Shown here: positions 1,099-47,508 of the stretch, in pieces | Layout of the letters: the number at the start of each line of letters is the position of its first letter | How positions within the stretch are numbered: the stretch's first letter is position 1 | Source of the DNA: Rhizodiscina lignyota | Taxonomy: Eukaryota; Ascomycota; Dothideomycetes; Aulographales; Rhizodiscinaceae | Assembly: GCA_010015805.1 (NCBI GenBank) | Contig: ML978134.1 | Coordinates: forward strand, 620,001-684,000 | Length of the DNA stretch: 64,000 nucleotides | Direction: 5' to 3' | Notes under the pieces: generated by a model | Told to the model about the DNA's origin: nothing | Databases searched by the model: none | The model's input: the letters and a program-made list of their open reading frames with translations, nothing else | Position numbers and translations under genes: made by a program

Positions 1099-2490
1099 TC
1101 ACATGAAGTAACCGCCATTTGGTTTCTCAGCCAGTATAGGCTCTACACCTGGCTGGACCGAACCCCATGGCCCTTTTGTCAGCTCCCATTCATGATCTGT
1201 CAGCCCAAGGTGTGCCCACTTATTGTGTGCGGCCTCTTGATATTGTAAGTGTACGCAGTGGTCAGTGCAAGCCACATGGGCAGCTTCAAGAAATTGTCTG
1301 AACTTGTTTGCAATCCATTCTCCATGCATATGCTGTTCGAAGGCTGTGTACAGCTCGTCGAAGCCAGGACGAATGGTCAGAGCACCATGAAGCTGTCGCC
1401 AGCATCGTTCCATGCTTGCATCATATTTTTCCGGCACCATCGCTTGAGGCAGTTGAAAACAGAATAAATGGACAAGTGATAGGTCCCGAGCCGTCCACTG
1501 GTTCCTGAAGCTCAGGGCGAGGTGCAGAGAGAGGTATCGAACTATGTCCAAGAATAGCTCAGTTGCCTTCATAGAATAGTCGACTTGGAAAGTAATATCT
1601 GAGCCTTGCACGATTGAGAGCAGCCCATAAACCTTGTCTCGTGGATCACTGCATTTGTTAGCATGGAACTGGAGGAGAGCCGTGCGTAGTGGGCTCCTCG
1701 TGCGTGTCGTCGCATATGTGATCAGGTAGTTCACGTGCTTGGGTAAAGGAATTGTCCCAAATGTCCACCGGCGTATTAAGTCAAGATATTCCCAAGGCAT
1801 ATGTATATCGCCGCCATAAACAACAATCTTTGCCGCCAAGAGCAGCTCTTGAACAATCCATAAACGTTCCCAGTAGTCGATGGCAAAGAAACGCTGGACC
1901 GCCGGTTGTATATTGCTCCAGTCGGAAGGGCTCTCGAGTGATCCATACATGCCAGACGGATTATAGGTACCTCGAGAGTGTTTCACCAGATACCGCATGG
2001 TGGTGTCATTCTCCGAGTCGAGCAGCCCTAGCCAGACGATGACTTCGGATGCAGACGAATATATGCCGGACAGCATCATGACTTGTTGATTCTTTTCTGT
2101 CACTGTTTCCTGGTCAATGCACAGCTGATCAATCCAAAGCTCGTCGTGGCACGCTTGAGATCTCTGAAGTATTCTCAAGAAGTTGTATAGGTTTTGCCGC
2201 ACTTGTTTCGTCTTTCCATTGATCAAGATCTCGAAGGACGGAGTTGCGGGGCCCCATGTGTACGACAAAGCACGGTAGGTCGGCCACTTCTGCGTAGTGG
2301 CATCCAAGTCAACGTGACGAATTAAGCATTCGATGGGTCCGTCACCGCTTCCGGAAATTCGTATGAGGCGTATTTGCTTCTTAGAGATACTGAGCGGTTG
2401 GTAGACAAAAACATCTGTATTGGACAAGATCGGACTTTCTGATGCGTGCCCACCGTGCATAGAAAGTGATATTGCAGACATATTGTCCAC
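1099..2490 (-). CDS. HET-domain (heterokaryon incompatibility) protein
   Basis: Single-exon gene of 463 residues. The HET domain (PF06985) starts near residue 70 with YRALSYTWGP and continues through LYNFLRILQ and WIDQLCIDQ (about residue 118) to the MLSGIYSSASEVIVWLGL block. These are the three hallmark blocks of the fungal HET domain, a TIR-like module that triggers cell death in vegetative incompatibility. The C-terminal half has no recognisable partner domain, and the protein is shorter than many HET proteins. Two Met codons lie close together at the start (MDNM), so the start is uncertain by a few residues. It is divergent from the ATPase-NOV gene downstream, about 0.66 kb away. The role in non-self recognition is inferred from the domain only. 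Confidence 0.9.
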   Translation of the reverse strand: MDNMSAISLSMHGGHASESPILSNTDVFVYQPLSISKKQIRLIRISGSGDGPIECLIRHVDLDATTQKWPTYRALSYTWGPATPSFEILINGKTKQVRQNLYNFLRILQRSQACHDELWIDQLCIDQETVTEKNQQVMMLSGIYSSASEVIVWLGLLDSENDTTMRYLVKHSRGTYNPSGMYGSLESPSDWSNIQPAVQRFFAIDYWERLWIVQELLLAAKIVVYGGDIHMPWEYLDLIRRWTFGTIPLPKHVNYLITYATTRTRSPLRTALLQFHANKCSDPRDKVYGLLSIVQGSDITFQVDYSMKATELFLDIVRYLSLHLALSFRNQWTARDLSLVHLFCFQLPQAMVPEKYDASMERCWRQLHGALTIRPGFDELYTAFEQHMHGEWIANKFRQFLEAAHVACTDHCVHLQYQEAAHNKWAHLGLTDHEWELTKGPWGSVQPGVEPILAEKPNGGYFM

Positions 2491-3148
2491 TTTGTGCCCT
2501 CTGCCTGATGGACTGTTGCTTCGGTCACAACAGGACGCTACGACAATAGAGCTTCATAATCGGGAATGATGAAGATGTACGTGAAATCTTCAGGAAAAGA
2601 GGTTGGCAAATGGTGGAGAGCGGGCCGCGGCTTATTATCTGGGTGGCTCCTGAAACACGAGGCGCTCTGTGCTGGAAGTACATCTACAAGGCACTTCAGG
2701 AACAAGTCTGACCACCTTGAGCAGCCAATACCATGGCATTTAGCTCTTCACGAGACTAATGATGTCGACTCGAGCCAGCAGAAACGCGTTCCATCGTGAG
2801 CGCGATGCGCAATCGCTGTTCTATGTTGGTCACCATCCACAATGCACAGAACTGCGCCATATCTACTTAACGTGACACATTTGCCTGCTGCATATATTGA
2901 CTGGATCCTGAGTATCAAGTCTCGGGCGTCTCTAACCCCAGCAGATTGATGGGATGACCTGCTGTGCCGCAATTCTGGCGCCAGCATCCTTGCACGGAGG
3001 CTTGAAGGATTGTGCTCACCTTACACTCTCTCAAACCACTACTTATCGATTATGATCGCAGATACATGACTCTGACCACTTTATCAACCGTTCGTTAAGC
3101 TTCTTCTGCGATTCACCCATGAGAGGGCGACCTGACCAACTTTCATAA
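2491..3148. promoter_or_regulatory. Divergent intergenic region between HET and ATPase-NOV genes
   Basis: 658 bp separate two start codons that face away from each other, so both promoters should lie here. I see no convincing TATA box, uORF or repeat. Small open frames on both strands have no domain signature. Confidence 0.5.
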
Positions 3149-6100
3149 ATGGAAGATGATTCCTTGCAGGCGAATAACATCAAAGAGCTCGAAAAAGGGC
3201 GTGCTTTCATTGATAAGGTCAGGAAGAAGAATGGCGGGCTCACAAAGGCTCAACGAGAGCGTCTGCAGCGTGAAGACCCAGAGATTCTTGAATCGTTCGA
3301 TAACTTGCGCTCCCAATTGAGTTCATCCACGCAACTGTTAGTGTCATACCATAGACGCCTTGAGTCTATTGTGATTGAGTAAATCTTTTAACTATTCGTA
3401 GCCTCGCCGAACAGCTCTATACAAAACCTACACGCTTCGTCTACGAGCTCATTCAAAATGCGGAGGACAACCGCTACGAGAAGACAAACGAACTCCCATG
3501 GCTTGCCTTTACTCTGAAAGAGGACAAGGTCATCATCGACTCGAACGAAGACGGATTCACAGAAGAAGACATCAGCGCAATATGCGCTATCGCTAAAAGC
3601 ACCAAGTCGACACGCCCGGGCTACATTGGAGAGAAGGGCATTGGTTTCAAATCAGTCTTTAATGTTGCGCAAAAGGTACACGTGCAATCTGGGCCTTACT
3701 CTTTCGCATTCGAATACCGGAAAAGTGACAAGGACGACAACGGGCTAGGCATGGTCACACCCTTGAACGAAGATGCTAACAAGCTTCCTGAGCGTGTACG
3801 AACGAGAACGATCCTCTACCTTCTCGAAAATTATGATCGTGAACAACTTTTGCAAGAGCTTTTGGGTCTACCTGACACTCTGCTGCTATTTCTCACCAAG
3901 CTGAGACGCTTGACTCTTCGCTTCAAGGTTCCAGCGCAGGACATAACGGAGATCCAGTACCTCATGCCTTCTCATGTTGACTCAGATCCCGCAAACATTA
4001 CTCGGATCATCAAAACGACATCTGGAAAGAATAGCTCGGAGGTTGTGAGAAGGTTCTACGTCCAGAGGCACCACGTCAGCAACATGCCCGCGGATCCTGC
4101 TCGTAAAATGGTCCACGAAGCTGAAGTTGTTCTGGGCTTCCCCTTAGACGAGAGCAATACGCCTATCATCGAAGACCAGCACGTCTTTGCCTACCTTCCG
4201 CTGAAGAAGGCTGGTTATACGGTGCGTGCTGCACCATTTGTGCTCCCTGGAGTGATAAACGGGTTATAGATGCTGATCAAAAAAATACTTAGTTCCTCAT
4301 TCAGTCGGACTTCATCACCCAGGCCAACCGAGAAGATCTTGCAGACTCTGCATGGAATAGGCGTTTGATTGGAGAAGTGGCCGAAACATTCTGTAGCGCC
4401 GTGATCGACCCGAAGGGATTCCTCAACCACTCCAGACTGCGACACAGTTGGGTTCGCTTTCTTCCAACTTCGCACGTTGCGGATGAATTTTGGGGACGCC
4501 TGAAAGCCAACATAATAACTATGATGCGCGAAAAGCCCGTGTTCTACTCGGCAGATGAATCGCAGTGGCTGCCATCTTCTTTGCGTATCGTTGGCTCAAA
4601 ATTTCGAGATGAAGATGATGAGCCACTCTTGCGCGATCATAAAGGGCTTGCGGATGCGTACATCTCAAGATCATACGATACAGCCGACGACCTACCTGTG
4701 CTTCAACGTGCTCACCAAAAGCAACCCACTGACACATCGGCTGTCTTCAGGATATACTCCCGCTTGCAGAGATATTCCGACGCCACGGACGTAAGTAGTA
4801 TACGGTAAGTTACCCTGCTCCACTTTCATGCAAGCAGTTTTTGACATCTTTGCCATTAGTACAACCTTTAATGATGATCTCGTGCTGCTTCCTCCAGGCG
4901 ACGGCCGAAGTGTCTGCTGTTGGACAAGTGTCCAACATGTCCTTTGGGATGGCCCCGACTGGTATACTTACATGACCTGTCTCAGATCTTTCAACGAGTA
5001 CCGTTCGTTGCAATCCCTGTTCACTGAGGTCCTAGCCCTGAAAGATGCGTCGATACCTCAGTTTCTGGACTTCTTGTGCGAGATCTCTAGGGGAGGAAGT
5101 AGCTCGCCAAATTTGGACAAGGTCACTTCACTGTACGACAAGCTAGGAGAAGCATCAGGCGAAAATAACGCTTCTTCTCCGGAAGCAGTCCGGTAAGTTT
5201 GTAGCTTCTCAGCCACAGCCACTCGACTCTGACTGTGTCAGACTTCGCGTAGAGCAAGAGAAACTTGTCTACTACCCTGGAAGCAAGACCTGGCATGCTC
5301 CATCATCTTGTATATGGGCGCCGGCCAAGGTTCAACTACCAGGCAAAGTCTCTCTTGCTACAGCATACACGAAACAGCGTCGATTCTTCGAGGATGTGCT
5401 GGAAATACCCAAGCCAAGCGTGCACATGCATATTGCTGCTCTCCAGGACCGAGCACGAACGCATCCCAACAAGGCTGCAATCTTTCATGAGATGCAAAAC
5501 ATCTGCGCATTCAGCCCCTCTGCTGATTTGCTACGGGACAAGCTCGCAGATTGTACATGCTTCCCAATTCGGCGACCATCAGGCAAGATTGATTGGATGG
5601 CCAGCGCCGAAGGGTTCGCCATCGCAGATCGCAAAGAGTACGCTTCGATTTTTAGAGACAAAATCGACATTCTCGATTTCTCACTGGATGAGATACATGC
5701 TGTGCGAGCTGTACTTTCGGCGCTTGGCTTGGAAAGGCAGTTCATGTCAAAAGCAGTCAGAGAAGAGACCAAGGTCAAAGATGGAATGCCGCTTGACAGT
5801 CTTACAGCCGATTTGCGCAGCAAGGCCTACGCCATCTGTCGGTAAGTCTTAGCGTGGACACCCGTTCTCTATTTGTCTGTGCTGAAATATAAAGTTTCGC
5901 TGTCCACCTTGGAAGTAGTACTGCTAGGGCTGCCTTTTCAAAGCTCCAGGCTCTTGAAGTGTTTACAAGCGATGGTATTTCGAAGAGTGTGTCTATCACT
6001 CAAAACGGGCGCAGTCGGTCTGTGCAAGTGTCTACGGCCTACTTTCACGTAGTTCAGACCGAAGACCGCTTCAAGCTCTACGTACCCGAAGAATTGCGAC

Positions 6101-11865: not shown

Positions 11866-13753
11866 TTAGCTATAATTCCTGTCTTCAAAGGCGCCAGACA
11901 TACTCAAGATGATCATGGAGAAGGAAATGTACTCCGTAAGCGTTTGGAAGCTCGAATCGGTCCTGGCCATGTTAGCAAAGTTTCTAAAGTCAGATACAGG
12001 GGCACGTACAATCTTCTTGCCATTATACTCCTCCGCAAGCAAGTACTTCATCGTCTCGGTGCTGAGCAGGCCCCTCAGCCAGTCCCACTCATCCTTATGC
12101 CGCACCCAGAACCCGACATTGCAGTTGCTGCCCTTGTCTCCGCTCCTCCCATGTACAATCCAGCCCAAAGGTCCACGTACTGTGCGGCCAAACCTTGACA
12201 TATCTACTGATCGAGCAGTCACGTCCTGGCTGGGCTGTTGCTTGGGATATGTCCTTGTGCTGTCCAGCGCCGGAGGTGGTATATCGATTGCTTCTCCACT
12301 TTCGAGGTGGACCTGGTGCTGGATGTCGCTTTGAGGCAAGAGAGTAACCCAATACTCGAATATGGGCTTTGGGAACCCAAGCCTTAAATCCAGATGGCAA
12401 GTCGCGCCTGGGTAACCCTCCATAATCGGATCGACGCAGGGCCTCAAGAACTTCGAGGGAGATAGATCCTTCTGCTCTTTCGCCTGCGCAAATACTCTGA
12501 AGTTCACGGTCGCCTTGTTCTGATTCGTGGGATTGTCAGGGACACTGCCATTCTGCGTGAACTCGAGCATCGTGAACTTGTGGATGTGAGGAGCAAGCAT
12601 CTTCCGCATCTGAGCTTCAATCATGCGGGCTTTCGCATCGATATCAAGGCCTGTAAGGAACCAGTTCATTTCGGCTTGGTAGCCTCCTTTGGCCGTGATA
12701 CCAATCTTGGTCGTCGGAGGAGGCGGAGAGCCTGTGACGCCGCGCAACGCTACTCGATCAGCCCCTAGCTGCTCGAACCAAAGGCCATCCAGGTTCGCGG
12801 TCACATCCTAAGGCTCCTTTATCAGTATGTTTCAAGTATGTAAATGCACGATTTCTTACGCTGTTGAAATACCACGGGCCTTGAATTTCGTATAGCAACT
12901 GGCTTGTACATGTGCCGACAGACACTTCTCCACACTTTCCTTTTTGCTTCGTGATTACAACCTGACCACTTCCATCAATCTCAGCGATTGGATATGCCAT
13001 GTCGTCCCAGCCTTTTGACTCCAAATCTTTGAATCCGGTGTAATTTCCACCAGTAACGTAACTCGAGCACTCAATCAAATGGCCTCCAACAAATGCGTTT
13101 GCGAGCTTATCCAGTTCATGCCTGCCCCAGCCATGCCACCATACTGCGGATGCTATGACTGGACTTGCATCTGAAACGCGCCCGCAAACCACAATATCTG
13201 CTCCTCTTTTGAACGCCTCCACAATACCCAGCCCACCCAGATATGCTTGTGCATATATTGGCTCAAATGTCCAGTCACTCAGGACCTCGCCCGTGCAGAT
13301 ATTCTCGAATTTGGTCCTCCCTTCTTTCACAGCCTTCTGCACGGCAGGGAAGCACTCATCCCCACTGACCCACGCAACACTCAGCTTTAGGCCCTTCTTC
13401 TTGGCCATTTCCCTCACGGCCTCTGCCAATCGCTTCGTGTCACTGGCGCCAGCATTCACGGCGAGCCTGATCTTGTACTTGGCAATGTTCTCTATCGCTG
13501 GTGCAAGGGCTTCGAGGAAGGTAGGTTCGTACGCAGGCACGTCGGGCGAGTCGGTGATGCTACCAGCACGAGCGGTCATGTTGAACTCCGACATCCAGTC
13601 ACCAATTATCACGTCAATTGGGTCGTTTGGAGCGTTAGCTGCAAGCTGAGCCATTGCGAGCCGTCGATCGGTTGCGGCGCCAGAGCAGCCAGCAATCCGT
13701 ATTGGCCTCTTTGCCGCCATATTTGTAGTATCGATATCAATTAGGCTGCTCAA
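11866..13753 (-). CDS. AtuA family protein (acyclic terpene utilisation, DUF1446)
   Basis: Two exons, 13753-12860 and 12807-11866, separated by a 52-nt intron (donor GTAAGA), giving 611 residues. The N-terminal part begins with a glycine-rich strand (IRIAGCSGAATDRR) and continues through VIIGDWMSEFNM, DIVVCGRVSDASP and LIECSSYVTGG, characteristic of PF07287 (AtuA). The C-terminal domain has GWIVHGRSGDKGSNCNVGF, also typical of fungal and bacterial AtuA homologues. In Pseudomonas the atu genes take part in citronellol/geraniol breakdown. The biochemical role of AtuA itself and of the fungal homologues is not established. A downstream in-frame Met (NMAAKRPIR, residue 12) could be the real start. 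No transit or signal peptide is clear. Confidence 0.9.
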
Positions 13754-14473
13754 TGTTAATGTAACAATCTGAGATACAATTGATTTTTACACGAGAAAGG
13801 AGCTTCGCCGTCACGGAGGTCGATACAGTGCTTCTGGAGAAACAAAAGAGACGGTGCGGAGATAATATAAGGAACAGAGCACCGAGCTTGAGGCAATGAA
13901 GGTTCCCATCTTGAAAGCTCCAATTGACCCTGGCCGAGGCTATGCAGCTGGATGCGGAGGTTAGGATTTTGGTCTAGAGAGAGCTTTGCGGAATGTCGGC
14001 TAGCAAGCGGGAGGCGGGATTCCGAACGGGGTAAAGGATAGGGGTGGGCTTGGCATAACAACTCCTGAGTTCTTGACAGCTTCACCAGAACGTGGAATGT
14101 CGAATAAAACGCACAGCATTGATATCATATTCTCTTTTCGAAGTCATAGACGTGTTTTTATATTCAAGAAGGATGGAGGAGTGTGGTCCTTGGCATATAT
14201 TACGTTATCTTTGCACATGGTACGGAGTATCAAGTCGCTGATTCCACATTATAATTATACCTATTTGGAAAAATCCTTCCTTACAAATGAGTGGAGATCA
14301 CTACAAAGTTGTAGTGTACATCACTTTCCTCCTCGATTGGCAAACACTGCAATATCGAAATGAATGTCTGATGCCTTCTCGTCGCAACATCAATCCATGC
14401 CGAGCGCTAATCAAAAACTCACCACAAAATGAATCGTACTTTTATTTCTCTTTCATCTCATCCTTGCTTTTTC
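13754..14473. other. Intergenic region
   Basis: Upstream of the AtuA-like gene and downstream of the Kex2-repeat gene. A hydrophobic-looking plus-strand frame that begins here is the antisense shadow of the His/Asp repeat gene. Nothing else was recognised. Confidence 0.5.
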
Positions 14474-15399
14474 CTAAAAATGTTTTTCATGATGAAACTT
14501 GTCCTTGTCATGATGGCGATGTTCGTCTGCAAATAAATGAGTTAGCTCGGGAAAGATATGAAGATGTGATAGAGATGTCCATTACCATGGTGATCTTCCT
14601 TCTTCCCAAAGTCCTCATTCCGTTTGAAATGTTCCTTGCGGCCGTGGTTACGGTCATGATCGCGGTCATGATCCTTATCGTGGTCATGCTCGTGCTTCTC
14701 TTTCCCAAACTCCTCATTCCTTTTGAAATGTTCCTTACGGCCATGGTCCTTGTTATGGTCCCGATCGTGATCCCGATCGTGGTCGTGGTGGTCCTTGTGC
14801 CTATCAAACGCTTCATCTCTCTTAAAATGATCTTTGTGGCCATGATCATGATCTTTGTGATCTTTGTGATCATCGTGGTGCTTGCCGTCGTGCTCATGCT
14901 TCTCAAAGTCCTCATTTCGCTTAAAGTGATCTTTGTGATCCTTGAACTTCTTCTTATCATCATGGTGCTTTTCTGGGCGGAAGTGATGTTCCTTCTTAAA
15001 ATCCTGCAAATGCTTAGCACCTGAAAAACATGTATGTGCACTCAATTGTATTGGAAGGCAAAAGAGCCGAGACTTACAGGTTCGGCTTCAGCCTCACGCT
15101 TAAAGTGATCCTTATGATCCTTGAATTTCTTCTTATCGTCGTGATGCTTTTCCGGGCGGAAGTGATGTTCTTTCTTAAAATCCTACAAAGACTTAGCACG
15201 TGCACAACTTCTATGTGTGCCAGATTGTATTCAAAGTGGACGATTCGAGACTTACAGGTTCAGCCTCACGCTTGTTCATGTTGATGGCATATTCCACAGC
15301 CCGAGCTTCAACGGCTGCCTGAAGCGCAGCCCCTGGCTCCGGAATGGCAGCTGCTTGAAGCAGCGGAGCGAGGAAGAGTGTAAGAGCAAAGAAACGCAT
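14474..15399 (-). CDS. Secreted His/Asp/Lys-rich Kex2-repeat precursor protein
   Basis: Four exons: 15399-15256, 15182-15078, 15003-14586 and 14526-14474, 239 residues, total in frame. Residues 1-18 are a signal peptide (MRFFALTLFLAPLLQAAA). A short pro-region ends in NKR followed by EAEP (to residue 48). Residues 49-77 and 84-112 are identical 29-residue units starting DFKKEHHFRPEKHHDDKKK and ending DHFKR; between them lies EAEAEP. Next come exact 33-residue units at 113-145, 146-178 and 179-211, each starting N/D-E-D/A/E-F and ending EHFKR or DHFKR, and a final unit at 212-239. KR-ended repeats with EA/EP dipeptides match the Kex2 and Ste13 processing seen in alpha-factor-type precursors. 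The peptides are mostly His, Asp, Lys and Glu, so metal binding is plausible (inference). It lacks the Trp/Cys/Gln-Pro core of ascomycete pheromones. I do not recognise the family. Confidence 0.85.
14899..15255 (-). repeat. Tandem duplication of an exon-intron unit
   Basis: An intron plus the following 29-codon block occurs twice. Introns 15255-15183 (73 nt) and 15077-15004 (74 nt) both begin GTAAGTCTCG and share further sequence near the acceptor (GTGCTAAG). Over 29 codons the coding blocks differ at nine third positions with no amino-acid change. Confidence 0.85.
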
Positions 15400-15544: not shown

Positions 15545-15552
15545 TTTATATA
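15545..15552 (-). promoter_or_regulatory. TATA box of the Kex2-repeat gene
   Basis: TATATAAA on the minus strand lies about 150 bp upstream of the ATG at 15399. Confidence 0.5.
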
Positions 15553-17697: not shown

Positions 17698-18005
17698 TTA
17701 ATAGCAATGCCCTCAACATCACTATTATCAGAGATCTAACCGTGTCGTTCAACGGTAGACTAATGATAATCTCGCTAATCTCACTACCACTATCCATCTT
17801 CGTCTTTGTCGAACGTCCCAGCCTCGATGAGCGGTGTTAATTTAGAAGGATTTGAGGGGCCAATAACAGTCGATAGTACTGTTTCACTGTAGATGGAATA
17901 CTGACAGAATTGAGGGCATACGACGGTCGGGTTGGCTACCACTTGACGCGGAATCGGAGGTCGTAGCTTTCGAGGAGGTCGCAGAGGTCGCAGTCTACCC
18001 AAACC

Positions 18006-20862
18006 TCAGGTGTTCGGATCTATTGATGGTGGCCGACGCAGTTCTCTGTAGACTGCGATAGGTGTGGCAATACACAGCAATACAAGGGAAGCGAATAGGA
18101 GTCGTATTGGTTCCCACTTCGGGGACGGGCCAAATATGCCATCGTACCCAGGCAATCTGAGACTTCGAACAGGCCCAGAAGAATCCTAACATAGCCATTA
18201 GCATATGCTCATCACTTAAGACTAGCACAAAATGAAAGTAACGTACCCAAGTTCCTCCATTGGGGCCTGTCGTCGACAAGCTAGGGGGGCAATCTTCGTC
18301 GCGAGTACCCCAATCGCTCTCTTCTCGGCTCAGCACCAATTCCAGAAGTCCGCCATCTAAGAAGAATGCATGATCGATCCAATTCCGCATGTACGGCTGG
18401 CCATCGAGTGACGCGCTTTGTATATATATCGCTTCGTACTCTGGGTCAAAGTTGACGGTGCGGATCGTGGCTACGTTGCCTGTCTGTGGGTTACGGATGC
18501 TGACTTCGCGGAAGAATGGAGGGAGGATAAGGTAGACGTTCTGTCCGGCATTGGGAAACAAGCCCAGCATGGTCAGAGCCGCAAAGGAGCCCATTGCTCC
18601 GCTATCATCGTTTCCTTTGAGCAAGCGATTAGCAGAATGTCCAACATGAGCTTCAATTCCGTTTGTGGGAAGCGTGGAGTGGGCTTTACCAGGTATTCCC
18701 CCCAACGTATTGTTGAATTGTCTCGGAATATATGTATGTGCGCGTTTCGCCGACAAACCCGGCCGACCTGCATAATGATACAAGAATGGAGTTAGGAAGC
18801 CTTGCTCATCTCCCATTTCCAACAGCCCTGACTCGTGGAAGAAATCGAGACGCTTGATGAAGGAATCACGGCCGCCAAGAGCTTCAATGAGAGAGGCGAT
18901 ATCTCCGGGAACGAAGAAAGTGTATAGCCAGCAGCTGCCCTCGTAGGTTTCGTGGCCGTCCCAAGAAAGAAAGCAACTGTTTGGCTCTAACAATGGTGAA
19001 CACAGCACCGGATCTTGATGTGCCCAGGATCCGTTCGAATGCTTGGGCTGCAAGACACCATCGAAGCCAACACTGTTTCCATTGATCGCTGTACTTTGGT
19101 TGACTTTCAGTAGATTCTTCCAGTTCTCCGACCGCTTCATATATTTCCTGTAGTCTGCTGTTTTATTAAGGCCCTTGGCAATTTGTGCGACAGAGAAGTC
19201 GTTGTAAGCATATTCCACGGTGCGAGAGATACTCCTCGTAAGAGTTCCATATCCCAGGGTGTCATTGTCATGGATTGGAATGTATCCCTTAGTCTTCCAG
19301 CTCACTAACCCCCCACGGCCCTCCCAGCTCCAGCGTTCGGGCTCCTCCTCCGCGTCCTTGAGCACCGCCTCGTAGCCCGCGCTCCAATCTATTCCCTCCT
19401 TTAGACCCTTGACATATGCATCGGCTAGGACCACGTCGGCGTTAGATCCCCCTTGGGTCCACCCTTTGCACAATGACATGCGACAGTCAGGGAGGTAGCC
19501 TTCGTGGGCATAGGTGTCAATCAAGCTTCTAACCATAAGAGTCTGGGCTCGCGGGTCAAGAATGGTTAAGAGCGGGTGCTGAGCGCGGAATGAATCCCAG
19601 ATGCAATAGAATGAATCGTAGTATGGCTCCATGCTGTTCCAGAGTGGATTTTCGCCAGTGTAGTCTTGAGGGCTTAGGAAAGAGCGATAAATGCCACTCC
19701 AAAAGACAGCCTTGAGGTCCCGTGAGACCCCTTGATCATCAGAAACCGAGACCACTTCTAGCTTCTCTCTCCACGCCTGTTGTGCTGTCGCTAACGTGTC
19801 ACCGAAGTCAAAGTTTGGAATTTCTCTCGCCGCATTTCTGCACGCCTGCTCCGTGCCTTTAAAACTTAACCCAACTCGCGCCAGAATTGCATTTTCGCTG
19901 GACGAAAAATCGAATCGAGTGAATGCACCTCGGGGCCTGAATGGATATGAAAACATTCCGCTGCCGTTGTAGAAGCCCAGGGTACCATCAGCAAACGCAC
20001 CCGCGTCGCGGACCGCAGCTCCTGCATAGTCTACGCAGAACGAGAGACGATAGTGCCCTGTACCGAAACTTGGCGTAAAGGTGCCACTTCCGGTGATCCT
20101 GCCCGTCGTTGTATTGTAAGAGAGCTCGGTGTTCCTTTCGGAGCCAGGAAGATCAGTGAGCTCGGTTACAATGACTGGATTGGGATTCCTGGTGGGGCTG
20201 TTCTCAGTTTCCAGAAACGTGAAGCGATAGAGGGCAGTGTGGTTCGACACTGTCATCTCCGCTTTGATTCCGGAATCGAGCGTGATTGCAAAATAGCCAG
20301 GGTAAGCCTCGGCCGAGTCGTCAATCCGCTTGACCGCACGGATATGGATACACTGTTCCAAATCGTCTCCAGGGCAATTGAGTGGAAAGAGGGGGAAATT
20401 CCCCAGTGATGTAGCTCCGCCGGTGCCCGAATCATGCACTAAAATGTTCGTGTAAGTACATTACGGCTTGAGATATACAATGGGGTTTGTACTGTGTGAA
20501 AATCCCTTAATCTCGCTCCGGTCAGAGCCGTAACCGCCTTGGTTTTCTCCTTTTACATCGGCAACAGCTTTTGCCATACCTACACACCAAAGGGATCGAA
20601 CTTAGCAATGGGGATCATCTTTGGAATCAGACATAAGCCGCTCACCGAAGGGTAGGCTTGCGCCAGGGAAGACATGACCTGCCATCAAATCAGAAACTTT
20701 TGACAAGTATGGAGCACAAACGCCGGCGAAGCTGCGGGGATCCGTCTACTTGCCTCCACTAATGGTACCGATCAAAGGATTCACGTAGCTGTAGCCACTC
20801 CCACCACCTAGGACCGCTTGCGGCCCAAAGAGGGTGCAGAGCGAAAAGATGCCCAGCCTCAT
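18006..20862 (-). CDS. GH92 alpha-mannosidase with C-terminal membrane segment
   Basis: Five exons: 20862-20754, 20678-20646, 20579-20493, 20438-18247 and 18185-18006, 866 residues in frame. The first intron (20753-20679) has a GC-AG donor (GCAAGT), supported by restoring the GH92 N-terminal motif YVNPLIGT..GGHVFPGA. A signal peptide (MRLGIFSLCTLFGPQAVLG) precedes it. Further family marks are GMAKAVADV, the FSHMHDSGTGG region across the exon 3/4 junction, SFYCIWDSFR and HPLLTILDP in the catalytic part, and GNDDSGAMGS near the C-terminal half. GH92 enzymes are exo-alpha-mannosidases acting on N-glycans and fungal mannan. The last exon adds 59 residues with a hydrophobic helix at 834-853 followed by RELRR, suggesting a type-I membrane anchor. 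That is unusual for a family whose members are mostly soluble. It is co-oriented with the secreted-protein gene upstream. Confidence 0.92.
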
Positions 20863-21662: not shown

Positions 21663-22741
21663 TTAGGGAGGACCACCGGCAGGCCCGCTCTTGTCCCAAT
21701 ACCCTGCGCCTTTGTAGCTGCAAGGCCCAACAACACAGTAATACGAGACACCACCAGCGTTGTTCGCATTGGGCGAATACATGACAAAGGGCCCCCCGGT
21801 AGAGTCTTCATTACAAGTAGTGTCGTAATTGTTCTGGACAGTGTATGCGGTGTCTAAGAAACAGGGTCAGACGATCGATTGGCCGATTGCTATGCTCCGA
21901 AGTTCAAACTTACGCGCTGTCCCGTACCAGATGCACACTGTCTCACCAGTGCCTGCAGTGCACTGATACTCATTGCCTGTTTCCCAGGACTCATCGACGG
22001 AGAAGCCACCGCTGATCCACTCGGTCGCAACGAGGTCGGCGCTCCAGCCGACGCTGAAACTTTGAGAGTCTTCTTGGCCAACCGTACATTGGACGGCAGC
22101 GCCACAGCTTATGGGGCCCTAGCTGTGTCAGTTTAGGTCCAAGAGGGAAGGTATGAGTAACTCACGCTAAGCTGCGAGTCCCAGTAGTTCTGATGCGGAT
22201 TGCCATCGGCGATCATGCTGGTACTTTGGAAGACTGTGCACGCTGGAGGGGCGTCTGTGCGTTTTGATTTCTTCGTGACTGGCTCGGACTTTGGAAAGCC
22301 GTAATGCTTCGGGAAGTGGATCGAGCTTTCAGAGAAACAATCCTCGGTGACATTGGTAGGAATGGAAGTGTAAGAAGTGCCCTTCGATGGGATGCTGCAG
22401 ACTACCTTGGCAAAGTCGCCGTTGTACATCTTAGAGCAGACAATACCTCCAGAGTGGTCGGGCTTCGAGTGCACCTTGTAGTTAGAGGAGCCATAAGTAA
22501 CGGTGCCGGATCCGTCCGCGTCAACGTCGAAGGAGATTGGTTCCTTAGCAAAGTTTCCGTCATCGACCTTGTCGCTGCAGGCCTGGCCGAGAAGAACGGT
22601 CTCATCCCCATTCCACACTTGGAGAGACTTGGCTGAGGAGCCCTTCTCATGCCTCCAAATGACAGAGATGTCGCCGTGCGAGGTAGGAGCCGCAGCCGCC
22701 AGCGGCAGCAAGGTGATCAGGAAAGGAGCGAGAGAATACAT
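21663..22741 (-). CDS. Secreted two-domain cysteine-containing protein, family unknown
   Basis: Three exons: 22741-22166, 22118-21914 and 21853-21663, 323 residues in frame, with introns of 47 and 60 nt. Residues 1-18 are a signal peptide ending AAAAPTSHG. The N-terminal domain (about 24-140) starts ISVIWRHEKG and has several Cys. A basic stretch TKKSKR at 156-161 looks like a Kex2 site that would release the C-terminal domain (about 162-323). That domain has evenly spaced Cys (CTVFQ, SCGAAVQCTVG, EYQCTAGTGETVCIWYGTA, YYCVVGPC) and is rich in Trp, Gly and Ser. I do not recognise the family. Secreted size, cysteines and a processing site make a host-interaction or cell-wall role possible, but nothing in the sequence proves it. 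Confidence 0.8.
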
Positions 22742-24562
22742 GATAAAGGGGAGAAATGAATGTCAGGAAAGAAGAAGAAGTAGTGTTGTGAAGTTGTTTG
22801 GAGATAGGATGAATGAGAGAGAAACGACACATTTATATGTTTCCTGGAGATGGTTTTCATCTTCCAAGATCTTCTCATTACCATAACAAGATGCTATTTT
22901 TACATATCGTCGACAGCAATCTCCACGAGGGGCGGTGCGACGGGTCATTGCAATTGCGATGTGGAGGTCTAGTGTTGATGGTTTGTGCCATAATGGCGTC
23001 CAACACGAGGAGCCGTCTTCACATTCGCGCTTCTGATATGCTTGATTTCTCGAGGCTTAGCAGTAAAGCGGAGCAATTCGAGCGAATCTTATCCGCCATT
23101 CATTTCGGAAACTTTGCGTCGAAACTGTCCATGTAGGGTAGTACACATTGTGGCTGAAAGGCTATGGAAGAGTCCGTGGGAGAGTTCAAGTACGGTAAAG
23201 CTTCACTACTAGGGCCCCATATTAGCATCGGAGGCGTTTCATGCCTTACAATGGAGTCTGCGGGGTCAACCAAATAATGGAAACAGGAAAATATATGTGA
23301 ACGTGAAATCCTGACTGAGAACGAGATATTTGAGAGTGCCTGATGTGGAGCGGGAGCTGAACATGCCAAACCGACTCAGAATAGACCCCAAAGAGAGCAG
23401 CAAAACTACACAAACCATTCCTCCGTAAGGACATGCTCGATCCAGAGAACCGACTCAATGCTGTGGACGTTGGATGACCAGGTTACTCGCGTGCGGCCCA
23501 GAGCAAAAGTTAGGACTCCTAGGTTCGAGCTTGGCATGAAGTTGTTGTGGAGTTGCGCCTCAAAAGCTCGGGACCGAGAGGGCTCTGAGGAGGGTCGGGA
23601 TCAACAGGCACAGTCCTGATTTATCTAGTAGGCCAATCAAGCCCACAAGCCCAGTCGCACGTGGATCTGCGCCTGAATGGGAGGCCTGAGTGCGGCCTGG
23701 CCCAGAGCGTTATACACGATCTTTCCAATGGGAATCCCAGAATATCCATCTCTCATCTCCTCGAATTGGTCAATGTAGTTTAGCGACGTAAAGTACTCTA
23801 AAGCTCCGAAATGAGGTTCTATCTGGAAACACAACTGGGGGCGGAGGTGCACAAAACTTGTCCCTAACGATCAACTTCGGATTATCCGCACGCATAACAT
23901 TCCATCAATCATCACCTGTACAGCCGTCAAAGTAATGCTAGTGTGTTTTCATGGTCAATATCGCTCCGCGAACGGCTTCACAGCAAACGAACTAGCCAAT
24001 CATCGGTGAACCCCCCTGATTATTAGTCGCGCACGAAAATAGAATGTTCCTGCGTCTGGACTCCACTTCCAGAGAGCCTACAGTATCCTAGAGGTCAAGC
24101 TGCTTCAATTTCAGATTGACTTCCGTACCCTCGTTTCAAATGCAAAATCTTCGCATCATCCTCTTCACGAACACACCAGTAGCGGGGACAATTCACGATG
24201 GCAATGAGAATCTACAACGAGCATGATGGCTATCGCTTGATTCGAGTGCCGGGGGTATGAACGCCTTGATTCGCTTTCTTCAAGTGGTATCTGTGTATGT
24301 ACTGTACGCCATTAACCACAGCGCTATGCAGGAAAGCCACGATTTCCCATCTACCGAATTCATATCGACATCAACATCGACAGCACTTGCCGCTTATCGT
24401 ACGTAAGCCAAGCAGAGTGCGGTCTGGCTTCGAAAGAGACGCCGCCCAATAGACCTGGCTAGACAGTCCTGCGGCCGCATCATGAGAGTATTTACAGCCA
24501 TCCAGAACCATCTTTCTTCTCATCTTACCTCTGATGAGTTTCACCTCCTCCTCGTTTCCCCA
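22742..24562. other. 1.8-kb intergenic region without a recognised gene
   Basis: The left end holds the promoter of the secreted-protein gene. The rest shows only short frames below about 110 codons with no domain features, and no repeats that I could see. Confidence 0.45.
22831..22837 (-). promoter_or_regulatory. TATA box of the secreted-protein gene
   Basis: TATAAAT on the minus strand lies about 90 bp upstream of the ATG at 22741, a usual fungal spacing. Confidence 0.5.
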
Positions 24563-27500
24563 TTATCCTCTGGCCAACAAGCTCCTAATCTTCTCCTGCT
24601 CGGCAGCTGAGAGAGACTGGAAGACATCCTCGAAGCCCGGCTTCGCAGCTTGTTCACGGAAGAACTGAATCAGGTACGCCTGCGTTTCGTCATCACGTTG
24701 ACGCTGGGGCATGTCTTCCGCGAAAGCCATGAGTTCTGATAAAGTTTTAGCATGTTCTCAATCATGCAGAGGAAGGGAAGAAGCATACCAGCTTTCGACA
24801 TGCCCAATCCCAAATCTACTATGGGGTTGGGCTCATCTTCCCAATCACCCTCGTCACTGCCCTCATCTACACTACCGGTGCCGTCTTCTACTCCGCCAGC
24901 GCTACCCGCAGAATTATTGCCGATGCGCCTTGCGCTTCCGCTGGCTGACAGCAACTCTTCGACCAGAACCTTGATGACTTTGATCGGCGCAGGAACAGTT
25001 GTGTACTGGTCCGGATGCTCTCGGGCACGGGACCGAGTCATAATGCGGCCAGTTAGCGAAGGGTTGATGATGAGGTCACCCTTCACCATAACTTGAGCGA
25101 GGCGAGGATCATGTAGGTCGTATAGCTTTGAGAGCGCAATGACGCTGATACTCTATGTTAGCGATAGATCCCTGTTCTGAGACCAACTAGTGAAGAGGGA
25201 GCGGCACTCACTTTTGCCTGATCTCATCGTAACCTGCGAAATTAACTGAATTCTCCAGCCATTTCGACATAACCACCTGCAGCCCGTTCTCTGCGTCAAC
25301 TTGCACCTGAGAGAGAAACTCCACAACTTCGCCGGCATTGTGGAGACTCAACCTCGCAAACACGAGAATCAAGCTCTGGATGAATTGTGCGCTTGTCGCA
25401 CTAGCTAACCGCACTGCCACAGCTTTTAGCAGCTGCAGCAAGAACGGGCCGAGCCTCTCGCTCCCGGCCTTCTCGACGACCTCGGCCGCTAGACCGCCCA
25501 CTTCGGCTGCGGCGTTGTCGTCGACAGTCGGTCCCAGAAGTCGATCGATGATGACGAGCACAATTTCAAGCCCAGCTTTGCCAGACTCGGGCTCGTGCCA
25601 CTCGAAGAGCTGTTGATAGTCGTGCATGAGAATGTTCTTCACGCAGGAGGTACATGATTTCAGAAGCTCCTCGTCCGTCGAATAGAGGAGTTGTCGCTGC
25701 AGTTTCGGCATAACTGTAGCGACGAAGCCTTGTGGAAGAGGTTCGGAGCCATGCGTTGCGAGGATGTCCAAAAGCTCTGCAGCAAGATTGGTTAGGGCAT
25801 TCTCCTCGGTCAGCGTACCAACGTCAAAGGCACCAGTCAGCGACGGAAGGACATGACGGCAGAGCTGCATATAAGCATCTGCCCCCGTCGCGGATAGTGT
25901 GCCAACAACTTCTTCAAATGTTTCATCGACGAGACTGATGAGGTTGAAGTTATTGGCACCATGCCTTGCGAGAGTGAAGAGCATGTCGAGCCCAGTTCCC
26001 TGAAGGCATATCGTTGTGTCAAGCAGGATGGCATCGCGAAGCGTTTCGACAAGAGTTGTCATCAGATCCTCACTCTCGGTAAGCTCTTGTAGGTCTTGCG
26101 CTGCCAAGTAATTTGACAGAGCGGAGATGATAGCATTTTGCATCGGCAGCATGACGTCGGGTGTGAGAGCTTGTGAATAGTACTGCATCGCACGAATACA
26201 GGATACTTGGACGACTTCAGATGAATCATTATTGATAGCTTGAAGGGTAGACTCCACGAACGAAGGCGCCGTCGATCTCATAGCATCAACGGCAGCACGT
26301 GTGAGGCTACCGGCGACCAGAAAACCACGAGCCCGAAGGAATTCCTCTTCTTGCTGCATAGCGTGTCGGATGAATTCCGTGAAGGAGAGAGCTGCTTCAG
26401 GGCTGAAGTTCCGATCCAAGTCTCGGAAGTCAATCAGGAGTTGATTGAGCAGGTACAGCGCGGCCTCCTTTAGCTTCCAGTTCTGTTCTGTCGAATAGAG
26501 CGATGCGGCATACGCCAAAAGCCCATCCACTGTAACTTGAGGAATCCATTCAGCAAGTTTGATGACAAGTTCCCCACAGGCACTTCGCGGTGTGTAGTTG
26601 GCAGTCACACTGGTCTCTTCCGAAATGAAGATGTTGACGTCGATGTTCCACAATCCTTCCTCTTCCGTTGTTATCTGCGCATACGCGACAGACATCCGCA
26701 TAACTTCAATCACCCAGCTAGTCTCACCCGCATTCTTTCCTCGTAGCTGTTGCTCGAGCTCTTTGCGAACTGGTGGGGCGCGCAGAATGGCCTGCATGAA
26801 ATCAAGTTCTTCAAGGACTAAGAAATCGAGCGAATACGGCAGGTTGTCGGCGTCTTCTAATCGACCTTGTCGTTGCTCTACAATGAACATTTGGTGATAT
26901 GCGCCTCGAACAGCGGTCAACTCATCCCAGATCGCGGAAAAGAGAACCGTGCTCTGCGGTGCTAGACTTGATGGTAAAACGGATCGTATTCTCATGAGCA
27001 CTTTGACGACTTGATTCTTCAGTGCGGTCATGCCCCGATAATACACAGTAGCGTCATCCTCTTTGCCATCTTCGGTCTCCGGTGGTGGTTCTGGCAGCCT
27101 TGTCTTGAGAATATTCAAGAAGAATGGTACCCAGTGTGAGAGCGCCTCATCAGTGAATGCCTTGACTGCTGCTTTGTGCACTTCCATTACTTGCTCCAGT
27201 ATGTCAAAGCAACCACGGAACACGTGGACAGCTAATGCTCTCAGCGTAGCCTTCCTCGAATCGTTGGCCGCAATGTCAAAAATTGACTTGATCAGCTCTC
27301 TCGCCACGGCAAAGAATTGTTCGTCGTTGAAGCAGTCATCCACAAGCTCGCCCAGTACCTTCAAGGCACCGTGCAGTTGCGCGTCTGAGCCAGTCTGAAT
27401 GACGTGCAGGACAGCAGGGAAAAGTTCTGGCCACTCCTCAGGGAAGTCTGCATTGGCAATCTTGCTGACAACGTAGCTAGCGGCACGTTTTATCTTCTGC

Positions 27501-42385: not shown

Positions 42386-42934
42386 GGTGTGGAATGAGTT
42401 GTGGCAGAGAGAAGCGCATGTACAAGAGCAGAACACGTGGAGCTTTGGACCTCTGAAAAGGAGCTGATGGTTCATAACGGGACTTGCAAAAGGCGCATTC
42501 GTGTCGTGTCATGAAAGGGATGCATATGCTGGGGTATCTTTAAACAAACACTCGTACAAATCGCGATTCAAGAAGAATCGCGTAGCTCCACTGATCCAAC
42601 CTCAACATCTCAATCCTCTTCGTCCACAACTCTCTCCTGAATCTCCATCGTCCACAACCCTCCCTTCAACCCTCATCCATTGCACCCATTCAGTGCACTT
42701 GTCCACAGCACCCGTCCACTGCACTCATCCACAACGCTCATCCATTGCAGCCGTTCACTGCATCCGTCCATAGCATCCGTCCACAGCACTCATCCACAAC
42801 GCTCATTCACGACGCCCATCCACAACGCTCATCCACAACGCTCATTCACGACGCCCATCCACAACGCTCATCCACAACGCTCATTCACAGCATTCATCCA
42901 CGACCTTCATCCACGACCCTCATCCACGACCCCC
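42386..42934. other. Convergent spacer holding a minisatellite
   Basis: Lies between the stop codons of OST4 and the AT-hook/C2H2 gene and should contain both 3' untranslated regions. Its right half is the tandem repeat described separately. Confidence 0.6.
42650..42932. repeat. Minisatellite, 13-bp unit with 39-bp higher-order period
   Basis: Units of the type CGCTCATCCACAA (13 bp) with variants ending TTCACGA or CATCCACAA run through the tract. At 42801-42889 three-unit blocks repeat with a period of exactly 39 bp. The tract stops at the stop codon of the minus-strand gene. Confidence 0.85.
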
Positions 42935-45900
42935 TCAATCCTCATCGTCAACAACCATCTCGTCGTCCTCATCATCCATCAAGCCCTGTCTCCTCTTGCC
43001 GTTCGCGAGCGTCACACCATCCCTATCCAATCCAACACCAACCTGTCTCTTCTTCCGTTCCGTATCCTTCTGAGTCTCCAGAGCCGTATGCTCCAGCGTC
43101 TGCTTGCTGACTGGCGGCCTGCCTCTACCGCGCGGTGCGAACGGCGGAGCCGAAGCACCATTCGAAGAACCCAGCGCCTCTCGAATTGATGATCGAGGGG
43201 ATGTCGTGATGCGCGGAGTTACACGTCGACCGTGAGTGTCGCTTAAGTAGGACTCTGACGCCTCGGATTCGTGCGCGTCTGACTTCACATTAATATTCCT
43301 CAACAGCAGGATGTTTGCATACTGGAACTTACCGGAGAGTCCACTTGCCTGTCCATCACCCAGGGTCCACGCGATGGGGTCGAAATGCTCCTTTTCCATA
43401 TGCGCCCACCATTCCGGTTGACTTGCGAAATCCTTTCTGAGCCTCTGCGTCCCGCTGAGTCCAGTTTTGCGGTTCAGGATGGTCACATCCTTGCCACATG
43501 AACCCCAGAGACAATCGAAGCCACCATGCGCAGCCTCCTTCTCATGTGCCTTGGCCACGTGACTGCGCAACGTTTTCAAGTTGTGCAACTCTGCCGTGCA
43601 GTCCTTCCACTTGCAATGATAGACAGTGAACTTTGGCTCCGGGCTCACATTTTCTCTTCGCTTCTCGCGCACTTCGGCGGATTCGGTTGCAGCTTTAGTC
43701 CTATTGGCCAGAGCGATCGTTTGCGGGTTGCCATGAATCGCTTTTCTCCAGCCGACAGGACGGCCTCGCTTCCTAGCCGCCGGCGAACCATCCGCATTTT
43801 GAGCGGCACGGAAAGCAGAATAGCCTGTAACAGGCATGCTCGGTGCTGAAGATGGTGTTTGTCTTGAAATCTGCTTCGATCCTCGCGCGGAAGCCGAGAT
43901 GGGGAGAGCTTCGGAGTTATGTTCCGCCGAATCCGAATCATCTCCTTTGGCTGGTCGCGTGCTGAATGAAGGATAGGCATTGCGAGGCGGTCGGCCTCTG
44001 CCTCTGCCTCTCGTGCCGATGGAATGTGGTCTGTTTGATAGTAAACTGTGGCTTTCTGGCTTCTTTTTCAGCTCACCTCCACCGCCGACTGTACGGCGCA
44101 GGAGAACGCGCGTCTGGAGCTGTTCTGGGCCGTTGTCCTCTTCATCAGCGTCATCCGCATCTACCATGACCGAGTCCTGGTCTTCCGTATCGACTTGTGG
44201 TAGAGGCAAAGGCTCGCCAGGATCAATAAGGTCCCATCGTAGAGTTGCCAAATCTGCCTTTTCGCCAACTTGTGGCAGGTGGCTCCGCACTGTTTCGAGA
44301 TGTGCATTAAGATGGAACATATCCGGGTGCCTGCCTGTTGCGAGCAATACATCCCTTGCAACAGTTCGGACATCATACACTGACCTGCGCAATGCTTTGT
44401 GTCGCTCGATTTGCTCCACAACATTCACACCCCTGAGCTTCTCGCCTGACGTAACGCCTGCCGGTGCTATATGGGGCGGTGGAAGCTGCTGAGGTGCGAA
44501 GCCATGCGCCTGAGGGAGCTGCTGAGGTGCAAAGCCATGGGGCGGAGGCGGAGGTTGTGGTCGGTGGGCTATCAAGGGCTGATTGTAGTTGTAGCCGGGA
44601 CCTTGATACGGGTACGCTGAAGCGGTCGGTGGCGGCCATTGGAATGGTGTTCCTTGGTATGATGGAGGCGGTCCATAACCCATCGAAGGTACTGGCGGGG
44701 CGCCAAAGTATGGCGGCCTCTTCGGTTCTGATTCGTCGTCTGAAAGGCTAGTGAGGTCGACAATGTCGTTGAAGGTGCGCTTTCGTGCGGCCTCTTCTTT
44801 TGAAGCGGGAGGCTTGCTGGGCGACGCAGACCGAGCCACGGCCTCCGGCTTGACCATCTGTGCGACAGGTGCAGCAGGAGTTGTGGGTTTCGAAAGCTGA
44901 TGTGGTGCCGCACCCTGTGCATTTGGGGGGAAATATGGACTTGAGTACTGCCCTGGGGTTCCAGCATCCGTGGGTTGCCATCCGCCGTTCACAAATCGCT
45001 GGACTTGTGCAAGCGTACTCCCAGGCCTTGGGATATGATCTGGAGGAGGTGCTGGAGGCGGAGCTGGAGGAGGAACTGGGGGAGGTACATTACTTCTGCT
45101 AGTTTCGCCTGTAATCTGCCCATTCTTCTGTTGCGCTTCTTGTCTCTCCCTCTTCTCACGCTGGCGTTTCGCAGCAGAATTGACATCGGGGACCGCAGTA
45201 AGGAGTGCACGGGCAAATTGGGCACGATCGATCGATAAGCCACGGCCTTCTAGCCTCTCGCATAGGGTGATGTAAGAGGGGTTCATGTTTAATAATGCAA
45301 GGATGTCTTCAGCCTTTGCCTGTCGCTCTTTGTTCTCTGGCTTGTTGTTTATAAAGTTCGCCGCTGAGTATGCGAGCTGATTCTTCTTTTCAGGCGGCCA
45401 GATTGTCCCCTTATCTGGTGACCTTGGTCTGATACGAGGAGGTGGATTAGCCCGATCCCAAGATGATCCTGCCAGTATCTCTCCAGCTAGCTGAGCTGGG
45501 CCCTTGGCAACTCCCTCCACTGACACGTTCATCCCTATCGGTGCAGGTCCAGGCCTCGGCCGAGGATTCTGCGCAGCCCTACCTGGAGGTTCCGTTGTCG
45601 GACGTGAAGGTGCAGCAACCGGTGGTCGCGATGTTGGTATCGCAGACGCAGGCGTTGGCTCTGGTGGCTGCGCCGAATGAGGTTGCGGCACATTAGTGCT
45701 ATCCTCGCCGCCTGCGTGAGTCATAAACTGGCGAAGTAGCTCAGGATTCTTCGCCTTCATAGCCTTCAGCATGGCAAGCATCTGCGCATCTTCGTCGTCA
45801 TCGTCCGCGCCATCGACCTGCGCCGGCGTTGATTTCTTGCCTTTGCCCTTGGCCTTTGCTTCCTTCGGTTGTTTGGGCTGCTTTGGTGGCTTATCTTTCT

Positions 45901-47038: not shown

Positions 47039-47508
47039 TTCTCAAATCTCTCACTCCTGCTATACCCTTCCACCTCCCATGCGACCGCGACCTGAGTCGC
47101 AGGAAAGGTGTAGGAGATGTAGCGTGGCTTGATCAACACTTGAGAGTGAATAACACCAGGGAAAGCGGCACTCAGCAGCCCTTCAACTTTTTCTTGCGCA
47201 ACGATACGACGTGGAATACAGACATAAATCGGTGGCCAGTTGAGCTTGATTGTGGAAAGGTTTTCAGAGTTTGGCTGTCAGGGATTATTGTCGTGTGTTT
47301 CACGGAAAGTTGGTGCGCGTATGATCAGAGAGTGTGATGCTCCACATGCGGAGGTTCAAGTGCTCGCGAGTCGCGACGCATCAACAATCCCTGCTCGTGC
47401 CAAGCCTCGGCAAATCATCGGTCCACACACGACAGAGCAAATTCACCAGCACCCTAGAGACATCAACTCGAGCATCGACAACCTCACCCACCCTTCAATA
47501 CCGCCATA
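47039..47508. promoter_or_regulatory. Divergent promoter region of the AT-hook gene and RPL26
   Basis: 470 bp between divergent start codons, one of them a ribosomal-protein gene. No certain motif was identified. Confidence 0.5.

Follow-up and report, generated by a model that had tools for sequence, protein, structure and literature searches.

A predicted repeat precursor gene on the minus strand

Within the window (the whole 64,000-nt stretch of DNA analyzed here), the minus strand from 15399 to 14474 carries a predicted precursor gene of four exons, with its ATG at 15399, its TAG stop codon at 14476-14474, and a 239-residue product that contains six KR sites and six core peptides. The frame is open once three predicted GT-AG introns, whose lengths of 73, 74, and 59 nt are not divisible by 3, are removed. 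The introns begin with GTAAGT, GTAAGT, and GTAATG and end with TAG, CAG, and CAG, each carries a branch-like site (CTAAG or CTAAC) toward its 3′ end, and an AATAAA lies ∼27 nt past the stop codon. The predicted features, in transcript order, are as follows:

15545-15552 (-): TATA-like TATATAAA, lying ∼150 nt before the ATG; weak, a single match versus 0.57 expected by chance in 1 kb
15256-15399 (-): exon 1; encodes the signal peptide (MRFFALTLFLAPLLQAAA) and pro-region, then the first Kex2 site (NKR) and the EAEP spacer
15268-15273 (-): KR of the NKR site in exon 1
15256-15267 (-): spacer EAEP, exon 1
15183-15255 (-): intron 1; phase 0, GTAAGT..TAG, branch-like GTGCTAAG
15078-15182 (-): exon 2; 105 nt, symmetrical phase 0-0 cassette
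15102-15182 (-): core 1 (DFKK..DHF), exon 2
15096-15101 (-): KR after core 1, exon 2
15078-15095 (-): spacer EAEAEP, exon 2
15004-15077 (-): intron 2; phase 0, homologous to intron 1
14586-15003 (-): exon 3; cores 2 to 5 with their KR sites and the start of core 6
14923-15003 (-): core 2, then KR at 14917-14922
14824-14916 (-): core 3 (NEDF..HF), then KR at 14818-14823
14725-14817 (-): core 4 (DEAF..HF), then KR at 14719-14724
14626-14718 (-): core 5 (NEEF..HF), then KR at 14620-14625
14586-14619 (-): start of core 6, at the end of exon 3
14527-14585 (-): intron 3; GTAATG..TTTGCAG, CTAAC branch-like site
14474-14526 (-): exon 4; end of core 6 (..KFHHEKHF, 14477-14526) and stop codon TAG (14474-14476)

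The KR pairs occupy product residues 43, 76, 111, 144, 177, and 210; one stands in an NKR context and five in an FKR context, every FKR being HFKR. The spacer after the first KR is EAEP and that after the second is EAEAEP; the other four cores have no spacer. With the KR counted and these spacers excluded, the units are 29, 29, 33, 33, 33, and 28 residues long. An initial annotation of this DNA had given the same span, the same six sites, and the same unit lengths, all of which match the predicted gene exactly; the EAEP and EAEAEP that it placed after two of the sites are those of the first and second KR. Its signal peptide also stands by inspection and hydropathy, the basis of the call made here, since residues 3 to 18 have a mean hydropathy of 1.9 and are followed by QAAA, a signal-peptide-like N terminus. 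Tandem Repeats Finder reports a period of 99 nt (33 codons) in two rows, 14603-14784 (1.8 copies) and 14606-14848 (2.5 copies).

Exon 2 consists of exactly one core, its KR, and the EAEAEP spacer, and because it is in phase 0 on both sides, its skipping or duplication would keep the frame. The positions of introns 1 and 2 coincide with the predicted end point of Ste13 trimming (between EAEP and DFKK). Removal of the predicted intron 3 lets core 6 continue to an HF that directly precedes the stop codon. After spacer removal, cores 1 and 2 are two copies of the 27-mer DFKKEHHFRPEKHHDDKKKFKDHKDHF (class A); cores 3 to 6 (class B, 28 to 31 residues) are NEDFEKHEHDGKHHDDHKDHKDHDHGHKDHF, DEAFDRHKDHHDHDRDHDRDHNKDHGRKEHF, NEEFGKEKHEHDHDKDHDRDHDRNHGRKEHF, and NEDFGKKEDHHDEHRHHDKDKFHHEKHF, respectively. 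The single peptide set envisaged in the initial annotation thus gives way to two core classes.

Composition and charge of the cores

Ten amino acids (C, I, L, M, Q, S, T, V, W, and Y) are absent from the 175 predicted mature core residues. Among the 185 residues past the first KR (KR removed, spacers kept), H makes up 24.3%, D 20.5%, K 17.8%, and E 12.4%. The cores had been described as all His/Asp/Lys/Glu, which is right in that these four residues dominate and too narrow in that F, R, G, and N recur regularly in the cores as well. The histidine share reaches 32% in core 3 (10/31) and 29% in core 6 (8/28). Because Tyr, Trp, Cys, Ser, and Thr are absent, the usual sites of cyclization, disulfide formation, and O-glycosylation are missing. 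The cores are expected to be disordered.

Net charges computed with textbook pKa values are +2.7 for class A and −4.7, −3.0, −3.1, and −2.0 for the four class B peptides at pH 7, and +8.2 for class A and +4.3, +4.3, +3.6, and +5.4 for class B at pH 5. Residue order was compared with that of shuffled sequences. DH dyads are enriched (18 versus 9.9 on average, with at least as many in 5 of 5,000 shuffles), a count that includes core 1 together with its copy, core 2, and to which short tandem duplication may contribute. Opposite-charge neighbors are also enriched (35 versus 26.6; 103 of 5,000 shuffles), and same-charge pairs are depleted (18 versus 26.1; 121 of 5,000). Histidine pairs do not exceed what composition predicts in these shuffles, with HH at 9 versus a mean of 10.3, HxH at 7 versus 9.9, HxHxH at 2 versus 2.0 (one each in cores 3 and 5), and HxxH near chance; HxxxH stands at 13 versus 9.2, a count reached by 435 of 5,000 shuffles.

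Predicted cleavage sites kept through codon turnover

When the secreted part of the product was shuffled, six bare KR pairs appeared in 1,162 of 20,000 shuffles and five HFKR in none of 20,000. Since six KR are common in shuffles and five HFKR never arise, the KR count is weak evidence, and the signal lies in KR placement. The arginine codons of the six KR sites are, in order, CGT, CGT, CGA, AGA, AGG, and CGG (five different codons), and the six core-ending HF pairs draw on both His codons and both Phe codons; at neither the KR nor the HF positions is there any amino acid change across the repeats. Five cores end in HF-KR and core 6 ends in HF-stop. As the stop codon directly follows the sixth HF, at the point where the other cores have KR, the encoded C terminus matches the ends that Kex1 trimming would give the other five cores. 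The last repeat of the yeast α-pheromone precursor likewise ends without KR. Retention of KR through synonymous recoding, the HF-stop end, and the spacers bear out the Kex2-repeat precursor reading of the initial annotation, and it is very probable that this is a real gene encoding a well-supported Kex2 repeat precursor, with cleavage as a prediction. A recent microsatellite expansion was rejected because His, Asp, Lys, and Arg codons are intermixed along the whole sequence.

The same conserved sites bear on the proposal that the product remains an uncleaved protein, or yields a condensing mixture of oppositely charged peptides, and serves as an extracellular hydrophilin, a pH-driven coacervate, or a wall coat. 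The low-complexity, charged sequence would suit such a role, as would, at pH 7, a class A charge of +2.7 opposed to class B charges between −2.0 and −4.7, the enrichment of opposite-charge neighbors, and the depletion of same-charge pairs. However, an uncleaved protein would need neither KR and HF pairs that persist through synonymous turnover nor an HF-stop end, and we judge this alternative improbable.

Relation to known Kex2-processed precursors and genomic neighborhood

KEX2-processed repeat proteins (KEPs) are defined by a signal peptide, repeats, and KEX2 sites; their repeats range in size from 3 to 352 residues, and some members carry XA/XP spacers (PMC6339444). On the strength of its predicted product, the locus is a KEP by this sequence definition. 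An N-terminal signal peptide is present by inspection; six cores with six KR sites compare with the at least three repeats, separated by KEX2 sites, that are called for; and against a required repeat share of at least 15%, the cores make up 175 of 239 residues, a looser count than the published one of minimal motif times copies. KEPs share with the precursor the signal peptide, repeated cores, inter-repeat KR, XA/XP spacers (in some), and products that are often linear. The precursor differs in a core alphabet that lacks ten amino acids, in having two core classes, and in carrying one core per exon in the duplicated part. The initial annotation correctly placed the gene among KEP-type precursors, but the class is broader than it implied: the catalog lists 7,878 KEPs in 838 types, 2,560 without homologs (PMC7329392). 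Another report describes linear KEP peptides in mushrooms, the expression of KEPs in Pichia pastoris, and kep knockouts without a visible phenotype (PMC9769878).

The annotated view that this is not a mating pheromone is supported, and α-pheromone membership was rejected: the cores are 27 to 31 residues long, versus 9 to 24 for α-pheromones, and contain neither W nor C. The α-pheromone trait of XA/XP Ste13 spacers is found after two of the six KR sites. In ascomycete α-pheromone precursors, too, KR is followed by EA/EP dipeptides; in the present gene, this applies to two of the six cores only.

Dikaritin precursors (ustiloxin, phomopsin, and asperipin) share the Kex2 repeat layout, and the locus could accordingly be read as a RiPP precursor of this type, with cores cyclized by UstYa (DUF3328) proteins. 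The cores here are long and highly charged; those of dikaritins are shorter. Besides the shared layout, the reading draws on KEP types G-3 and G-8, which have HH motifs and lie mostly near DUF3328 genes (57/64 and 45/49, respectively, in the catalog [PMC7329392]). No core contains Tyr or Trp, though, and the Pfam matches listed for 143 ORFs of the window include no DUF3328. HxxHC, a UstYa-type motif, occurs once in the 464 ORFs of at least 60 residues, in an ORF at 24702-24971 (+) that overlaps another ORF and lies outside the set scanned with Pfam. Dikaritin membership was therefore rejected for want of Tyr (and Trp) in the cores and of a UstYa/DUF3328 match in the scanned ORFs, and a cyclized product is very unlikely.

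These Pfam results cover 143 of 145 ORFs chosen from the 464 of at least 60 residues, with exons of 75 residues or more included; one of the Pfam lists consists of the best 25 families, the weakest with an E value of 0.0017. The nearest Pfam-supported genes are as follows:

11869-13786 (-): AtuA-type, two ORFs
17998-20460 (-): glycosyl hydrolase 92

One flank of the precursor gene spans about 14 kb within the window, and among the matches listed for the 143 window ORFs, there is no DUF3328, peptidase, receptor, or metal transporter. By their taxonomic distribution, the short introns and a HET-domain gene elsewhere in the window point to a filamentous fungus, probably an ascomycete. Of 12 promoter patterns, including those for ZafA, Zap1, Mac1, and SreA, none is clearly above chance in the 1 kb searched (PacC, 1 versus 0.77; CCAAT, 3 versus 2.1).

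Pattern searches gave 3 matches in IMG/VR and 95 in GTDB genomes, none confirmed, in collections that are not fungal. Among the matches listed from the open-access literature, there is no Kex2 repeat peptide rich in His and Asp, a result that argues only weakly for the absence of such peptides. A His-rich motif (motif 19) is reported in four Rhizophagus secreted proteins, in a passage that is silent on Kex2 cleavage (PMC5293756).

Apparent purifying selection on class A and a looser constraint on class B

Cores 1 and 2, each taken with its KR (29 codons, 87 nt), differ at nine positions, all of them third codon positions and all synonymous. If the differences are treated as independent, the probability that all nine would be synonymous by chance is 1.6e-8 to 8.7e-6 for transition weights from 1 to 8, which correspond to synonymous fractions between 0.14 and 0.27. 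When the six frames were compared for these cores, zero nonsynonymous differences were found in the predicted frame only. Two other frames are free of stops: that on the same strand has eight nonsynonymous differences, and the antisense one has nine. One further antisense frame has seven synonymous differences and one nonsynonymous difference but contains stops.

This comparison also speaks to the possibility that the true gene lies on the opposite strand and that the KR repeat is its shadow, the candidate being the longest intronless ATG ORF that overlaps the locus:

14287-15024 (+): 245-codon ATG ORF antisense to the repeat gene; mistakable for a membrane protein gene

In the frame of this ORF, the nine repeat differences are all nonsynonymous, and the plus-strand membrane protein reading was rejected. 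Its hydrophobic runs are the expected complement of His, Asp, and Lys codons, and it is on the minus strand that matching splice sites occur together with a signal peptide and the HF-stop end. A plus-strand gene is thus extremely improbable.

Introns 1 and 2 are identical in 55 of 76 aligned columns (∼72%), with an alignment score of 30.5 versus a maximum of 18.5 among 500 shuffles. Because the introns that precede cores 1 and 2 are homologous, the duplication seems to have taken in an intron along with the exon, long enough ago for silent sites to have diverged. The arrangement is as follows:

15004-15255: exon-plus-intron duplication within the precursor gene; two homologous introns flank an in-frame, one-peptide cassette exon

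Since the differences between the two cores are all synonymous and the preceding introns are only ∼72% identical, the class A peptide sequence appears to be under purifying selection. Like the gene structure (with predicted introns) and the cleavage-site conservation, this amino acid conservation is read from the DNA itself.

Class B differs in this respect. Cores 4 and 5 are separated by about 15.5 nonsynonymous changes at a synonymous divergence similar to that of cores 1 and 2 (pS 0.74 against 0.76), cores 3 and 4 by 27.5 (pS 0.81), and cores 3 and 5 by 24 (pS 1.0). Fisher's test of cores 1/2 versus 4/5 gives a P value of 0.0046 or 0.0019, according to rounding, for a within-gene comparison with few changes, pS near saturation, and an ungapped class B alignment. 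As cores 1 and 2 show no amino acid change and cores 4 and 5 show many, two constraint regimes are suggested: class A appears to be held residue by residue, and class B appears to keep a narrow alphabet, an xExF start, and an HF end, a contrast that the initial annotation had not drawn. One gene would then combine two unchanged copies with four internally variable peptides whose alphabet and ends are kept.

Such a division could also be expected of a KEP that serves mainly in signaling, with the DFKK 27-mer as the ligand of an own or foreign receptor and the His/Asp cores either coreleased or drifting as spacers. The absence of amino acid change among the nine differences of cores 1 and 2, versus ∼15.5 nonsynonymous changes in cores 4 and 5, agrees with this idea; EA/EP spacers precede only the two class A copies, and exon 2 is an in-frame, one-peptide cassette. 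At 27 residues, however, the peptide is longer than the 9 to 24 given for α-pheromones (PMC6339444), and it has no W or C. The narrow alphabet, xExF start, and HF end shared by cores 3 to 6 are, moreover, unlike free drift. We therefore see signaling as the main function as rather unlikely, though a serious contender.

Proposed release of metal-binding peptides

The reading that we favor, tentatively, is that of a KEP precursor whose class B peptides act as extracellular metal ligands and whose class A peptide has a more specific signal or binding role. Processing, secretion, metal binding, and the roles of the two classes are inferred as follows. The precursor would enter the secretory pathway, where Kex2 would cut after each KR and Kex1 would strip the KR to leave cores ending in HF. 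A Ste13-type dipeptidase would remove the EA/EP dipeptides that precede cores 1 and 2. Linear peptides would result, namely, two copies of the basic class A 27-mer and four different His/Asp-rich 28- to 31-mers of class B. The latter would most likely be disordered, pH-switched extracellular ligands for divalent metals (Zn, Cu, and Ni), and class A would carry the more sequence-specific signal or binding role.

Among the functions listed in the initial annotation, metal capture is thus the one that we judge most plausible for the His/Asp-rich cores, with the histidine pairs and promoter sites counting against it. In its favor, DH dyads are enriched, the class B net charge moves from between −2.0 and −4.7 at pH 7 to between +3.6 and +5.4 at pH 5, and HxHxHxxD-type peptides of a Candida zinc transporter bind Zn2+ and Cu2+ (PMC8773511). 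Given that HH, HxH, HxHxH, and HxxH are all near chance, the case rests on histidine density and not on a special histidine motif. The 1-kb promoter contains no ZafA, Zap1, Mac1, or SreA-like site, and the Pfam matches listed for the window ORFs include no metal-transporter family. The strong constraint on class A exceeds what a ligand defined by composition alone needs.

The closest functional parallels are the Pra1/Aspf2 zincophores and the His-rich loops of ZIP transporters, which likewise present secreted or external, unstructured stretches of His and acidic residues, HxHxH being found here in two cores. These are large single proteins, unlike the short cores of the present precursor. The best zinc site of Aspf2 comprises two Cys and two His (PMC9780748); the cores have no Cys, which counts against the metal reading. 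With the precursor as the query, no Pfam family was matched at an E value of 0.1 and no PDB chain at an E value of 1, and no homology to Pra1/Aspf2 was seen in these searches.

Histidine-rich peptides are also known for antimicrobial activity, and the cores could be histatin-like peptides that become cationic at acid pH and are possibly assisted by zinc. Histatins, clavanin, and shepherins come from animals and plants, are not Asp-rich, and are not known to be released from a Kex2 repeat array. The likeness is compositional only: they are short, His-rich, secreted peptides that a review of zinc and antimicrobial peptides discusses (PMC10004757), and cores 3 and 6 reach His shares of 32% and 29%, with every core acquiring a strong positive charge below pH 6. 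At pH 7, however, class B carries a net negative charge, and it has almost no hydrophobic residue besides Phe, so that weak membrane activity is expected. For other KEP peptides, one study reports no specific function in tests that included bacterial growth inhibition (PMC9769878). An antimicrobial role is, in our estimate, unlikely.

A bolder version of the metal-binding proposal, which we offer as a doubtful speculation, is a ribosomal peptide metallophore system. Mixed His/Asp peptides would capture divalent metals outside the cell and release them on acidification, and class A would be a sequence-locked partner for marking, delivering, or sensing the ligands once they are loaded. If true, this would be a new KEP function and a gene-encoded counterpart of siderophores. 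Even the simpler case, in which the peptides bind metals, would give fungi a gene-encoded peptide route to metal capture. The extreme, readable composition of the cores makes for a testable prediction, that of metal and pH dependence, in a group where most of the thousands of cataloged members have no known function (PMC9769878).

Other features of the window

Further observations were made elsewhere in the window:

1102-2553 (-): HET-domain gene, adjoining the ORF at 3379-4266 (+), which has a partial sacsin/HATPase match
22133-22762 (-): second secreted-looking ORF (MYSLAPFLITLLPLAAAAPTS...), with no Pfam family at an E value of 0.1
33165-63999: 2 of 74 scanned ORFs match DUF5703_N, with a best E value of 7.1e-40
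42609-42934: tandem repeats that overlap one another (periods, 13, 26, 28, 39, and 65 nt)

The tandem repeats at 42609-42934 lie just past the stop end (42938) of a 1,368-codon ORF at 42938-47041 (-).
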